Assembly (NCBI RefSeq): GCF_003150675.1
Contig: NZ_QGGB01000001.1
Location: 62,001 to 126,000, forward strand
DNA from: Rhodohalobacter mucosus
GTDB taxonomy: Bacteria; Bacteroidota; Rhodothermia; Balneolales; Balneolaceae
DNA: 64,000 bases
Direction: 5' to 3'
Part shown: piece after piece, positions 748 to 6,061 of the stretch
Numbering within the stretch: the first letter of the stretch is position 1
How the letters are laid out: each line of letters begins with the position of its first letter
Notes under the pieces: generated by a model
Databases searched by the model: none
The model's input: the letters and a program-made list of their open reading frames with translations, nothing else
What the model was told of the DNA's origin: nothing
Program-made: the position numbers and the translations under genes

Positions 748-1914
748 CTACCGTCGGTAGCAGATAAGCGTACTTCGGTCTTTTTCGGTGACTCTGTATC
801 CCAGAAGGTGAAAAATTTCTTTCACGAAAAAGAGTGCAATATCCAGGTTCACTATGAACTCCTGCTTATCTGAGCGGGTAACTCCGGGCAGATAGGCAAG
901 AAGACTGTGAATCGAGCTGTCCCGGAGCCAGGCTGAAAATGTGAGCCAGAACGGTGACACTTCACGAATAATCAAAAAACCATCATTTCCGCTTTTCTGA
1001 TAGAGTGGCATAAAGATTCGACCCTCTTCCGGCGCTTTAATTACCTCACCCTCATCTATAGCAAGCGGTTCACCTTTCTCAACGGTATCAAAGTTCCTGT
1101 ATCCAGGATACATGTTAAAGTTATTTATATCCTCAATGTAATGGTGGTATCTGATTTCGTAATAGGAATTGGGCATACCCGAATTGTCCACCATTTCGAT
1201 TTCGTACTGCTCCAGATCGGGATAGCCGGCTTTGACCAGGCCGATATGGTGCAGAAGGAGTCTGATAAACGCTTTGCTTCGCTCTATGGATTCGAACGAA
1301 CTGTGAGCACCCGCTTCAAAACCGATGGCGCGGCATCCCAGGTTGTTGATATAGCTAAGAAGTGTTCCGTGTATATTTTCCTCTATTCCCAAAATCTGAG
1401 GCACAGGAAATTTCTGTGCAAGCTCCCGATTGGCAAGGGTGTCGTTCAGCAAAATAAATGCGCAGCTTTCAGAAGAGGTGGTGTGGAGGTCGGCAAATAG
1501 GATATCCGGCCGGTCCTGTTCATGGGCATGCAGAATATTGTCAATCTCCGACTTGATTTCGAGACTCTCAAAGTATTCAGACGGCAGGGATTTCCCGGAT
1601 TCAGCCAGTTCGGTAAAATCCTGGTCAGTATTGAATTTTTCCCAAAGGCGGTTCAGGTCCGTATCGACATAGCGCACACCCCGTTCCAGTGCTTCCAGGT
1701 TACCTGTAATGACATATATTTTTCCATCAGGCTCAATTCCGGAATTCATATACTCCTCCAGAATATTCTGTATGGCAACCACCCCGGCACGTTCATTTCC
1801 ATGTATCCCGACAAAAAAAACAACAACGGGATATCCGGGCTTTCCTGCCCCGATACTTCGAACTCTTTTTGAAATAGTCGCTTGTGGTAAGTCTGTTTCA
1901 GAACTCTTAATCAT
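748..1914 (-). CDS. Succinylglutamate desuccinylase/aspartoacylase (AstE/AspA) family zinc deacylase
   Basis: The protein has 388 residues. It shows the carboxypeptidase-A-like fold signature of AstE/aspartoacylase enzymes: zinc ligands H38 and E41 in GIHGNE, a substrate-binding DTDLNR motif at 84-89, the third zinc ligand H144 in ADLHTT, and the catalytic glutamate E200 in IGFEAG. Family members hydrolyse N-acyl amino acids such as N-succinylglutamate or N-acetylaspartate; the substrate here is unknown. There is no arginine succinyltransferase operon around it. It is the last gene of a three-gene operon and its ATG overlaps the stop of the upstream GCS2-CBS gene by 8 bp, so translation is probably coupled. 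The family call is strong and the substrate is open. Confidence 0.85.
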   Translation of the reverse strand: MIKSSETDLPQATISKRVRSIGAGKPGYPVVVFFVGIHGNERAGVVAIQNILEEYMNSGIEPDGKIYVITGNLEALERGVRYVDTDLNRLWEKFNTDQDFTELAESGKSLPSEYFESLEIKSEIDNILHAHEQDRPDILFADLHTTSSESCAFILLNDTLANRELAQKFPVPQILGIEENIHGTLLSYINNLGCRAIGFEAGAHSSFESIERSKAFIRLLLHHIGLVKAGYPDLEQYEIEMVDNSGMPNSYYEIRYHHYIEDINNFNMYPGYRNFDTVEKGEPLAIDEGEVIKAPEEGRIFMPLYQKSGNDGFLIIREVSPFWLTFSAWLRDSSIHSLLAYLPGVTRSDKQEFIVNLDIALFFVKEIFHLLGYRVTEKDRSTLICYRR

Positions 1915-3799
1915 TCTGATGCTTCATTTTTTCCCAGATTTCACGGGTGTCATGATCTGTTATAATACCCACCAGCCGGTTATCTTCCACGACGGGGAGG
2001 CAGCTTACTTTTTTATCAAGAAGCAGCAGCATCGCATACTTGAGATCATCATCCGGGCTGATTACAGCCGGATTTTCTTCCATAATCTCTGATGCTACGA
2101 TATACGGATCGTTTGAATGTTTCTTAAGGTAATCATTCAGCCGCTTTTTTGTTATAATTCCTCTCAGTTCCCCTTTCGAACTCTCCACGGGCATGTGCCG
2201 TATATTTCGCCATTCCATAATTTTCTGGACCAATTCTGCAAGATCATTCTCCTGCACCGTCACCAGATCCGTGGTCATGACGCTGCTCACAATGTCATAA
2301 CGCACTTTTAAATAATCGGACTTCTTTTTTCCGGCAACGTCCCACTCATAAACCGGCTTGCCTGTTTTACGCATTTCATCCATCACCGCCGTTAGCGCAA
2401 CCGTTGCTTCTTCACGGTCAAAATGTTCCCGAAAATTCCGGTAGCTGGTCACAATCCATCGCGATCCGGTCATATGCGTTCTGGTTCTGCCCTCTATCAC
2501 AGACAAATAATTCTCAATTTCTTTATCATCAATCCCAAGCTTTTTTAGTCCACCTTCTGCAAGCGGCAGCATCTTGTCCAGAATGAGAGCTTTGGCCGAC
2601 ATAAGTTCTCCCTCCCATACCATTCCGCTCTGTATGCCCCACATAGCCGCTTTATAAAAATTCTCCTTTGCTTCATCAAATGAGTGCTTATCCCAGTTCC
2701 CCCTGTAATTTTCGGGCATGTTGCTCATAATACCGACCCAAAAGGCCAGGTTCGCAATTTCATCTTTTTCCGTGGGACCTGATGGCATATAACGATTTTC
2801 AATGCGAAGGTGAGGAACACCGCCGCCCACGCCATAACAGGGCCGGTTCCATTTATAAATGGTTCCGTTATGGAGCTGAAGTGCTTCAAGTTTTGGAATA
2901 CCGCCCGCTTTCAGGGTTTCAAGTGAATCGGTTTCAATTTTAGTGGAAAATAGCAGGGTATGTCTTGCAATGTCATTCTTGAAGACATCCCCCAGACCCT
3001 TAATCCACCTGTTTCCATAGGTAACCCGCTGCTCGCGTTCCCGAAAGTTGAACACTTTACCGCGTGTATCGATGCTTTGCTGAAATAACGGGATTCTGGT
3101 CTCTGCCCAAAGCTGCTTTCCCAACAGAAGCGGAGAGTTTGCAACGACAGACAGAACCGGTCCCGAAATCATTTGAGCCCAGTTGTACATATCGGCGAAC
3201 TCGTCAGGCTGCACCTGTAGATGGCATTGAAAGCTGGTGTTACAGGCTTCAAAAAGGATGTTATCGTGACGAAGAATCAGTTCATCCACCCCTGTAATAT
3301 TCATCTCAAACTCTTCACCCCGAAGTTCTGAGAGGATCTCCGCGAGCGCCCGATAGCGTATTTTGGGAGTAAGATAATCAAGCTGAACCGCCCTGAAATC
3401 AATCGAAGGCAGAATACCGGTCAGAATAATTTTTTCATCCAGCGAAGATGCCGCCTCTTCTGCAAGTCCTAGCATTTCAATAAGCTGCTTTTCAACCTTC
3501 GAAAAACAGTCGGAACAAACCTCACATGGGTCCAGGTTGATTTCCAGGTTATACCTGGCCAACTCCGACGTAAAGTGTTTATCGTCAATGATATGCAGAA
3601 CGGTGGATGCATTTTTTGACGGCTTGAAGTGCCTGTCGACCAGACAAAATTCCTGCTCTGCCCCGATTCGGGTAACACCGGTCTCGAACATACCGTCGCG
3701 GAGCATTTTTTCGATTGCCTCCACATCGTGAAGAAGGTGTTTCAGAAAATATTTTCTGCTTTCCGGATCTTTGGCAATTGCTAAATTTTGGTTTCCCAT
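1907..3799 (-). CDS. GCS2-family carboxylate-amine ligase fused to a CBS-domain pair (copy B)
   Basis: The protein has 630 residues. Residues about 25-480 form a glutamate-cysteine ligase type 2 (GCS2/YbdK-like) domain: the metal-binding RIGAEQEFCLVD motif near residues 45-56, a CHLQVQPDEF segment, and LRIENRYMPSGP. The last 120 residues form two CBS motifs (SSVMTTDLVTVQ, then ASEIMEENPAVIS with GIITDHDTREI). GCS2 enzymes use ATP to join glutamate or a similar acid to an amine. CBS pairs usually sense adenosine nucleotides. A GGAGGAG Shine-Dalgarno sequence lies about 8 bp before the ATG. It follows its paralogue by 25 bp and overlaps the AstE-like gene by 8 bp. The key motifs are intact, so an active enzyme is likely, but the substrate cannot be read from sequence. 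Confidence 0.85.
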   Translation of the reverse strand: MGNQNLAIAKDPESRKYFLKHLLHDVEAIEKMLRDGMFETGVTRIGAEQEFCLVDRHFKPSKNASTVLHIIDDKHFTSELARYNLEINLDPCEVCSDCFSKVEKQLIEMLGLAEEAASSLDEKIILTGILPSIDFRAVQLDYLTPKIRYRALAEILSELRGEEFEMNITGVDELILRHDNILFEACNTSFQCHLQVQPDEFADMYNWAQMISGPVLSVVANSPLLLGKQLWAETRIPLFQQSIDTRGKVFNFREREQRVTYGNRWIKGLGDVFKNDIARHTLLFSTKIETDSLETLKAGGIPKLEALQLHNGTIYKWNRPCYGVGGGVPHLRIENRYMPSGPTEKDEIANLAFWVGIMSNMPENYRGNWDKHSFDEAKENFYKAAMWGIQSGMVWEGELMSAKALILDKMLPLAEGGLKKLGIDDKEIENYLSVIEGRTRTHMTGSRWIVTSYRNFREHFDREEATVALTAVMDEMRKTGKPVYEWDVAGKKKSDYLKVRYDIVSSVMTTDLVTVQENDLAELVQKIMEWRNIRHMPVESSKGELRGIITKKRLNDYLKKHSNDPYIVASEIMEENPAVISPDDDLKYAMLLLLDKKVSCLPVVEDNRLVGIITDHDTREIWEKMKHQND

Positions 3800-3824
3800 T
3801 TTTTTCTGCTCCTCCTGATGCGGT

Positions 3825-5750
3825 TTATTTCTGCAATCTCTTTTTATCGAGCAATCGCAGCAGACGCTTTGTGATTGTCATATAGTTCTGCTCGGTAATG
3901 ATGCCCACCAACCGGTTATTTTTCACAACCGGTAGACACCCTATCTTCTGCTCGTCCATGATTTCAATCGCCTCAAGTATGGAAGCTTCAGGGTGAATGG
4001 TAATAGGATTCTTGATCATGATCTCATCAACCGATGTGCTTCCATCTGTTTTCTGATGTATGATATCATTGTACTCCCTGAATACCATTCGCATTGTTAC
4101 CAAACCCACAAGATGCTTGCTGTCGTCCTCCACGGGAACATACCGTATTCGGCGCCATTCAATGAGGTTCGCAACCAGTTCCAGAATATCATCCTTTTGA
4201 ACGGTAAAGAGATCCGTGGTCATGAACTCCTCAACCAGGAGAGTTGAAGGCTGCCAGGTTTCCATATCGTCCACTTTGGCGAGGCCCCACTTATGAATCG
4301 GTTCTCCTTTCTTCTGGTTTTTTACCATTGCATTCGTAAGGGCCGTAAGAGCCTGCTCCCTCGACACTTTTTTACTCAGAGAGTTATAAGACTTAATCAT
4401 CCAATAGCTTCCAGTGCGGCCGGCTTCCGTACGTTCACCGATTATATCAAGATAGCTGTCCGCATCGCCCTTGTCTACCCCTGCTTTTAAAAGGCCCTCC
4501 ACGGCAATCGGAAGCAGCTCTTCACAGATCAGATCCACAGCCGTATATCGTTTGTCATCGATCCAGCGGAACTTCGTTTCCAGTCCCAGTTTGGAGGCCG
4601 CAAAAAAGTTCATTTTAGCATCGTCAAAATCCATGGTGTCAGAGATATTCCCATATACATCTCCCATTCCATTGAGCAGGCCAAGCCAAAAAGCCGCATT
4701 CGCTATCTCATCCGTCACCGTGGGTCCGGAAGGGAACACCCTGTTTTCAATTCTAAGGTGAGGCTTTCCATTGCTCACACCATAGCAGGGCCGGTTCCAA
4801 CGATACACGGTACCGTTATGAATTTGCAATGCACGGAGCTCCGGAACCGTACCCTCTTCAATCATTGAATCAACGTCTTCATCAATATCGGAGCTTAAAA
4901 TGACACGGTAACGCGCAATATCTTCCTGATAAATTTCGAGGATACTCTCTTTGAGCCATTGGTTTCCGAATGTAACCCTCGGACTTGAGTCTCTCAGGTG
5001 ATCCCCCACCTTGCGGGTATCGACCGACTGGTGGAAAAGCGCAATTCTGGTCTCTGCCCAAAGCCGCTTGCCGAAGAGCAAGGGAGAATTGACAGCACAA
5101 GACAGTACAGGGCCCGCAATTGCCTGTGCAAGATTATATTTTTGAACGAACTCATCGGGACTCACCTGCAGGTGCACCTGAAACCCGGTGTTGCACGCTT
5201 CCAGAAGCGGTGTATTGAACCTCATTAGCAGTTCATCCGTGCCCTGTATCCGAAGATCATACTCTTCACCGCGAAGCTTATTGATCGCGTCACAGAGCGC
5301 GCGGTACCTCGGAAGCGGGGTCAGGTTGTCGATGCTCAAATCCGATTTCCGAATGGTTGGAAGCACTCCAACCAGGGTAATATCTCCATTCAGTTTATTA
5401 ATGGCATCGCGCACAGTATCCAGTTTCTGCAGAATCTGAGTCTCCATGCTCGAAAGGCATTTATCCTTAAAGAGAAGGGGGGTCAGGTTTGCTTCCAGGT
5501 TAAACTGTGCCAGTTCGGTAGTAAAGCTCTGGTTGTCAATGCTTTGCAACAGGTCCATTGCACGTGAAGCAGGCCTTGTATAGTTGTCAATAAGGCAAAG
5601 CTCCTGTTCCGCCCCGATACGGACATTATCAGTCTCAAACCAGCCGTCGTCCAGCATCTTGCGCATAGCACGTACATCCCTCAGCAGATACTTAAGAAAT
5701 TGCTGTGACTGCTCTTTCGACTCCGGTAATTTTACGCGTTCATCACCCAT
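3825..5750 (-). CDS. GCS2-family carboxylate-amine ligase fused to a CBS-domain pair (copy A)
   Basis: The protein has 641 residues and is colinear with the next gene: a GCS2 domain with RIGAEQELCLID near residue 46, VHLQVSPDEF and LRIENRVFPSGP, followed by two CBS motifs (EEFMTTDLFTVQ near 513, then DEIMIKNPITIH and GCLPVVKNNRLVGIITE). The two copies have clearly diverged over their whole length, so this is an old tandem duplication and not a recent one. It is the first gene of the operon GCS2-CBS, GCS2-CBS, AstE-like. The reaction class (ATP-dependent amide formation on glutamate or a related acid) is family knowledge. A redox role like glutathione synthesis is possible, but no glutathione synthetase gene is adjacent. 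A heterodimer of the two copies is also conceivable. Confidence 0.85.
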   Translation of the reverse strand: MGDERVKLPESKEQSQQFLKYLLRDVRAMRKMLDDGWFETDNVRIGAEQELCLIDNYTRPASRAMDLLQSIDNQSFTTELAQFNLEANLTPLLFKDKCLSSMETQILQKLDTVRDAINKLNGDITLVGVLPTIRKSDLSIDNLTPLPRYRALCDAINKLRGEEYDLRIQGTDELLMRFNTPLLEACNTGFQVHLQVSPDEFVQKYNLAQAIAGPVLSCAVNSPLLFGKRLWAETRIALFHQSVDTRKVGDHLRDSSPRVTFGNQWLKESILEIYQEDIARYRVILSSDIDEDVDSMIEEGTVPELRALQIHNGTVYRWNRPCYGVSNGKPHLRIENRVFPSGPTVTDEIANAAFWLGLLNGMGDVYGNISDTMDFDDAKMNFFAASKLGLETKFRWIDDKRYTAVDLICEELLPIAVEGLLKAGVDKGDADSYLDIIGERTEAGRTGSYWMIKSYNSLSKKVSREQALTALTNAMVKNQKKGEPIHKWGLAKVDDMETWQPSTLLVEEFMTTDLFTVQKDDILELVANLIEWRRIRYVPVEDDSKHLVGLVTMRMVFREYNDIIHQKTDGSTSVDEIMIKNPITIHPEASILEAIEIMDEQKIGCLPVVKNNRLVGIITEQNYMTITKRLLRLLDKKRLQK

Positions 5751-5831
5751 AAATACAGACTATAGATTCCATCGTCCTAATAATTGAATAATTCATTCAG
5801 AAAGCAAGTGGTTTTTAAGGGCATTAGTCAT

Positions 5832-5983
5832 GAGTCTTGAGTATGGAATCTCAGGTCTATCGCAGACATGGTATGCCTGTATTGTGCTGAGCCGTTGATC
5901 CGCGGCGGAAACCGGATTCGATCTTGAAACCAATATCCGGGTCGAACAGACATACCATGTCTTAATCCAGGTACTCAAGAGTC
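5832..5983. repeat. REP/MITE-like imperfect inverted-repeat element
   Basis: This lies in the 311-bp gap between the GCS2-CBS operon and hisS. The outer arms GAGTCTTGAGTA (5832-5843) and TACTCAAGAGTC (5972-5983) are inverted copies with one mismatch. Inside them, CAGACATGGTATGCCTG (5863-5879) and ACAGACATACCATGTCT (5946-5962) are also inverted copies of each other. Each inner copy is itself a hairpin with a 7- or 6-bp stem and a 3-nt loop. Nested arms of this kind resemble REP elements that form pairs (BIMEs) or small non-autonomous transposable elements. No second copy was recognised in this window, so the repeat nature is unproven. The remainder of the gap shows only the divergent upstream regions. 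Confidence 0.5.
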
Positions 5984-6061
5984 AATACGATTTCTCCCCT
6001 ATCACTCGTATCTTCTCTTCTCACTTAAAACCGTTAACCGATACACTGATTAACTGAACAC

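Follow-up and report, generated by a model that had tools for sequence, protein, structure and literature searches.

Acyl groups are removed from N-acylated amino acids by AstE, DoeB, and aspartoacylase. The GCS2 ligase fold is common to PafA and Dop, and its GhExE signature is reported to belong to the Mg/ATP site and to be absolutely conserved in GCS2 and PafA (PMC2588565). In the breakdown of cyanophycin, the polymer of an ATP-dependent amide ligase, the beta-Asp-Arg dipeptide is hydrolyzed by CphZ (PMC12661447). The name glutamate-cysteine ligase is often given to GCS2-fold ligases in genomes without glutathione synthesis and is therefore misleading. No paper was found on proteins that combine a GCS2 ligase with a pair of CBS domains (GCS2-CBS), and an earlier in silico mention is possible, for example in the 2009 amidoligase survey of Iyer and colleagues, where gene pairs of a related kind may be described.

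The window analyzed in this study, a stretch of 64,000 nucleotides from Rhodohalobacter mucosus, carries three minus-strand genes at positions 748-5750, transcribed in the order A, B, C. Gene A (3825..5750, 641 aa) and gene B (1907..3799, 630 aa) each encode a predicted GCS2-CBS ligase, and gene C (748..1914, 388 aa) encodes a predicted zinc enzyme of the AstE/aspartoacylase fold. The genes were delimited by their ORFs and assigned through Pfam, with additional support from trees for A and B and from fold searches for A and C. A and B are separated by 25 nt and share an identity of 44-45%, while B and C have 8 nt in common. The ORF coordinates and Pfam matches agree with an earlier note on this DNA, which had described three minus-strand genes encoding two GCS2-CBS proteins and an AstE-like enzyme, with an 8-bp overlap. 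The locus is flanked by ScpB, 134 nt past C, and by a divergent hisS upstream of A. A promoter and terminator scan gave no signal above shuffled sequences. Between hisS and gene A, a long imperfect inverted repeat was observed at 5825-5985 of the window, which as RNA has a folding energy of -68 kcal/mol (z -4.3 versus shuffles); its core, GACATGGTATG, was present in none of the loci examined from other genomes. A further GCS2-CBS and AstE pair, containing the third GCS2-CBS copy of the genome, lies approximately 105 kb away on the same contig. This third ligase is 41% identical to A, yet it has no Pfam GCS2 match.

The GCS2 domain (PF04107) was recognized in A and B with 23.0 and 24.8 bits, respectively, against a gathering cut-off of 21 bits. 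When the GCS2 part by itself was compared with PDB sequences, only chance matches were returned, so a fold search was needed to place it. The AlphaFold2 model of gene A, built from an alignment of 10 sequences, had a mean pLDDT of 69.9 and two low-confidence stretches. The GCS2-fold part of this predicted model (residues 1-490, 4281..5750, minus strand) matched YbdK with a Z score of 29 over about 340 residues and the plant glutamate-cysteine ligase with a Z score of 24, and weaker matches were obtained for PafA and Dop (Z of about 17). It contains the motifs GAEQE, NLEAN, HLQ, and RIENR, where GAEQE corresponds to the GhExE metal/ATP motif. Both glutamates of this motif were kept in all 88 aligned ligase relatives, an alignment that takes in CBS-less proteins of family f23 and of actinobacteria, as well as one distant archaeal protein. 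Residues E48, E50, E79, N84, E86, R148, Q191, H193, E233, and R235 were invariant in 88 of 88, and R333, E335, and R337 were kept in 87, with an internally deleted gene as the one exception. The GCS2-CBS proteins are probable ATP-driven enzymes that form amide bonds.

Two CBS domains each were identified in A and B (Pfam scores of 87.8 and 84.6 bits; cut-off 24 bits). The pair spans approximately residues 504-624 of A (3879..4241, minus strand; Pfam and fold) and 503-621 of B (1937..2293, minus strand; Pfam), and in the predicted model of A it matched AcuB in complex with AMP/ADP with a Z score of 16. The second CBS motif, compared here with the T/S-x-x-D ribose-contact motif, reads GIITDHD in B, with the usual aspartate, and GIITEQN in A, with an asparagine. 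Neither form clearly predominates among 73 relatives, of which 32 had T/S..D and 38 had T/S..N. By these motifs, B is predicted to bind adenosine nucleotides, whereas A may lack this ability. As CBS-less relatives exist in f23 and in actinobacteria, the CBS pair constitutes an addition to the ligase that lies outside catalysis. Judged from its family, the pair is likely to sense nucleotides.

Gene C matched the AstE_AspA_cat domain (PF24827) with 56.9 bits (cut-off 25 bits) over a catalytic domain of residues 31-218 (1261..1824, minus strand), which includes the motifs HGNE, DLNR, DLH, and FEAG. It scored 42.4 bits with the AstE equivalog model, for which the cut-off is 305.65, and 51.1 bits with the aspartoacylase equivalog model, for which it is 180. 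The predicted structure (pLDDT 79.9) matched AstE (Z 23.6), DoeB, aspartoacylase (Z 19), and CphZ (Z 18), and it also matched M14 carboxypeptidases and Csd4. A C-terminal extension comprises residues 321-388 (751..954, minus strand) and was found in 18 of the 49 AstE relatives, all of which belong to a clade of long enzymes; most of it, residues 336-388, fell outside these fold matches. Residues H38, E41, R81, D86, N88, R89, H144, and E200 were invariant among all 49 relatives, and these include the predicted zinc ligands H38, E41, and H144 as well as the catalytic glutamate E200. The roles of single residues in both the ligase and the AstE-type enzyme, whether in metal or in substrate binding, are taken here from family knowledge and are presumed to apply. 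The zinc enzyme probably cuts amide bonds, and since the catalytic residues are invariant among their relatives, both it and the ligase look active.

The arrangement was surveyed in a sample of 296 genomes of the phylum Bacteroidota, where counts ignore kinship and family labels (f1 and so forth) were assigned by the survey tool. The ligase was found in 88 genomes and an AstE of the type of gene C in 49, with 50 matches. The ligase was also present in 47 of these 49 genomes, and in 43 of the 50 matches the AstE gene directly follows a GCS2-CBS gene in the same orientation, with its start no more than 400 nt further downstream. Hence, the two genes are paired far beyond chance, and the possibility raised in the earlier note, that the arrangement might occur in this genome only, is removed. 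The pairing was found in every one of the 36 genomes of the window's family (f1), in members of f26 and f34, and in a Fulvivirga. In f29 the two genes are unlinked, yet they co-occur in all five genomes with the ligase, and in f23 a CBS-less GCS2 gene is followed by a divergent AstE-family gene in five of the five loci read. Many genomes of f2 and of other families of the window's class carry the ligase without a C-type AstE, so AstE is not needed wherever the ligase occurs, and the ligase has a role without it. The commonest unit consists of one ligase and one AstE. In this respect the earlier note, which had described two ligases and an AstE, has to be corrected: the pairing itself holds widely, but two ligases in one locus were observed only in the genus of the window and in near relatives of that genus.

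The neighbors of the ligase-AstE loci were mostly housekeeping genes, such as PriA, ScpB, and RluB, and neither a dedicated transporter nor a third pathway enzyme was seen in these neighborhoods. An origin from mobile elements was considered and rejected: no relatives were found in viral contigs, and the relatives on plasmids were only CBS-less actinobacterial or archaeal proteins, with no AstE among their annotated neighbors. A fusion of ligase and AstE was rejected as well, as the long frames in two genomes (G103 and G134) proved to be adjacent genes with a stop between them.

We favor the reading, with a probability of roughly 55%, that the locus is a maker and breaker module for one small amide, made by the GCS2-CBS ligase and hydrolyzed by the AstE-like enzyme. 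With ATP, the ligase would turn a carboxylate into an acyl phosphate, which would then be joined to an amine; the gamma-carboxylate of glutamate is the most likely candidate. The AstE-like zinc enzyme would hydrolyze the same amide or a close derivative, such that the two enzymes together would set the level of one metabolite, and the C-terminal CBS pair may adjust ligase activity to the state of the adenine nucleotides. The module is supported by the folds, the intact catalytic residues, and the conserved pairing, as well as by two observations described below: beside the ligase, one AstE clade took the place of another, and AstE was also paired with ATP-grasp ligases. Beyond this, we infer a common substrate, a chemistry of glutamyl type, control by nucleotides, and opposite directions of the two enzymes. 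The reading is weakened by the many ligases that occur without a C-type AstE, by neighborhoods that offer neither a dedicated transporter nor a third pathway enzyme, and by the missing aspartate in the CBS motif of A. In outline, the interpretation of the earlier note is plausible, and it is supported in part.

Phylogenies of the ligase and of AstE gave further insight into the three-gene form. In the ligase tree, A grouped with the single-copy ligases of its family as the vertically inherited copy, and B fell into a separate clade with sequences of f2, f34, and f26. The AstE tree divided short enzymes of about 310-330 aa from the clade of long ones, which have an extension of 68-96 residues. 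Every f1 genome had one AstE after its ligase or ligases, which was short in 23 genomes and long in 13. Gene B was found in seven f1 genomes, beside a long AstE in all seven, and in six others A directly precedes a long AstE without B. The simplest account is that B and the long AstE arrived as a module that took over the position of the short AstE, and that B was later lost in one branch. Alternatively, AstE may have been exchanged first and B inserted later. One AstE clade was in any case replaced by another beside ligase A, and the AstE slot was thus kept filled. In one genome (G171, L076:8672-10135), residues 271-433 of gene A, including RIENR, are deleted in frame, and B is whole. The deletion may have arisen naturally or may be an error of the assembly; if the assembly is correct, it suggests that the function of A can be taken over by B.

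The exchange of AstE also bears on the direction of the two reactions. The AstE-like enzyme could act upstream of the ligase and release its amine or acid. In a supply route of this kind, it would deacylate an N-acylated amino acid or amine, and the freed product would then be conjugated by the ligase, so that both enzymes would work in the same direction. The fold of gene C is consistent with this route, as AstE, DoeB, and aspartoacylase are all deacylases of N-acyl amino acids, and the direction is not derivable from gene order alone. However, AstE was exchanged in place while the ligase stayed, and ligases without AstE occur; both observations fit an optional breaker at least equally well. 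We regard the supply route as quite unlikely and retain the maker and breaker module as the preferred reading.

Several named pathways were examined across the genome of R. mucosus. The glutathione pathway was rejected because no synthetase exceeded its cut-off anywhere in the genome: the best match to TIGR01380, which was RimK, reached 75.2 bits against 299.05. The AST pathway of arginine was likewise rejected, as AstA, the arginine succinyltransferase, had no match. The view of the earlier note that known pathways are not obvious, which had been drawn from the adjacent genes, therefore extends to the whole genome. BshA of bacillithiol synthesis is present, and a correlation with bacillithiol was tried and rejected; BshA occurs in nearly all sampled genomes of the phylum and is thus uninformative on the locus. 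The genome also encodes three gamma-glutamyltranspeptidases, which are compatible with gamma-glutamyl metabolism, without specificity. In three related genomes, a gamma-glutamyltranspeptidase gene was additionally observed a short distance upstream of A and in the same orientation (L003:4700-6256; L077; L078).

The main named rival is a side branch of ergothioneine synthesis, where the GCS2-CBS ligase would be EgtA, providing gamma-glutamylcysteine for EgtB, and the AstE-like enzyme would remove the glutamate at a later step in place of the EgtC amidohydrolase. It holds this rank because of the adjacency of Egt genes to the locus and a positive, incomplete co-occurrence. EgtB and EgtD, both over curated cut-offs, are adjacent to each other in the genome of R. 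mucosus. In a genome of the same genus (G108, L077:8431-12804), EgtB and EgtD immediately precede A-B-C in the same orientation, and in the genome G227 the gene order is EgtD-PriA-A-AstE. These two cases of adjacency among 30 f1 genomes compare with 0.04 expected, in a post hoc comparison. Over the 296 genomes, both GCS2 and EgtD were present in 51, GCS2 only in 37, EgtD only in 41, and neither in 167, which corresponds to an odds ratio of 5.6, or 2.8 outside the window's family, with kinship ignored in both values. Nevertheless, EgtD was missing from 37 of the 88 GCS2 genomes, including six f1 genomes that keep the locus, and together with the 41 EgtD genomes that lack GCS2 this indicates that neither needs the other. 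The Egt and ligase loci are also apart in most f1 genomes, as they are in R. mucosus itself. An assignment of the locus to ergothioneine synthesis was therefore considered unlikely.

Enzymes of the AstE fold were also found beside amide ligases of another class. In two genomes that lack GCS2-CBS (G053 and G273), a C-type AstE adjoins a MATCAP/QEGLA gene and an ATP-grasp ligase that resembles glutathione synthetase (L093:3379-7286 and L094:2490-6358). These AstE proteins grouped with the long clade, without its extension. In R. mucosus, contig C3 has RimK in one operon with a RimB-family protein (PF05618) and an AstE-family protein (L096:6265-8587). Similar clusters of MATCAP and ATP-grasp genes without AstE were observed in other genomes (L097-L109), at least one of which (L100) includes a gene of the N-formylglutamate amidohydrolase family.

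Such neighbors are also what would be expected if the locus edited the tails of peptides or proteins, with the ligase adding glutamate or another amino acid and the AstE-like enzyme trimming it like a carboxypeptidase, comparable to RimK/RimB and to tubulin glutamylation. The matches of gene C to M14 carboxypeptidases and Csd4, the AstE-family members that adjoin RimK in the window's own genome and the ATP-grasp and MATCAP-like genes in G053 and G273, and the GCS2 fold common to PafA and Dop (PMC2588565) are all in line with this explanation. However, neither a conserved small ORF nor a peptide substrate was seen beside the locus among ORFs of at least 90 aa, and the closest folds to the GCS2 part are the small-molecule ligases YbdK and glutamate-cysteine ligase (Z 29 and 24), compared with 17 for PafA/Dop. 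Tail editing is accordingly judged improbable, and a small amide remains the preferred product of the module.

A hydrolase that tracks a ligase across genomes, can be swapped, and pairs with a second ligase class offers a two-enzyme handle on the product. If the CBS pair gates the ligase, it would provide a new tie between amide metabolism and the energy of the cell. More tentatively, the locus may represent a previously undescribed metabolite cycle of Bacteroidota: a GCS2 ligase gated by nucleotides would produce a small amide of glutamyl type, and a dedicated breaker of the AstE fold would cleave it and be able to serve either a GCS2 or an ATP-grasp ligase; we consider this broader proposal possible, if doubtful.

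Compared with known systems, A and B share with the YbdK/GCS2 family (PF04107; PDB 1r8g, 1tt4) the fold, the GhExE metal motif, and a probable ATP-dependent ligase activity of gamma-glutamyl type, whereas their ligase part is more than 100 residues longer and only 13-14% identical to YbdK, and they add the C-terminal CBS pair and the AstE partner. The plant glutamate-cysteine ligase (PDB 2gwc) has the fold of gene A without its CBS pair. Gene C shares the fold, the HxxE...H zinc motif, DLNR, and the catalytic glutamate with AstE, aspartoacylase, and DoeB (PF24827), but it falls far under the equivalog cut-offs of AstE and aspartoacylase, and its long clade carries the C-terminal extension of 68-96 residues. 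CphZ (PDB 8ein, 8eip) belongs to the same fold class as C and cuts an iso-dipeptide from the polymer of an ATP-dependent amide ligase; that ligase is CphA and not a GCS2 enzyme, and CphZ is about 15% identical to C. The RimK-RimB system with its AstE-family neighbor likewise places an amide ligase beside an AstE-family enzyme, although its ligase has the ATP-grasp fold, a RimB-family protein (PF05618) is added, and CBS domains are absent. The pairing in G053 and G273, the RimB-RimK-AstE operon of R. mucosus, and CphZ together make an amide ligase with a hydrolase of the AstE fold a recurring combination, which supports a bond shared by the two enzymes of the locus.
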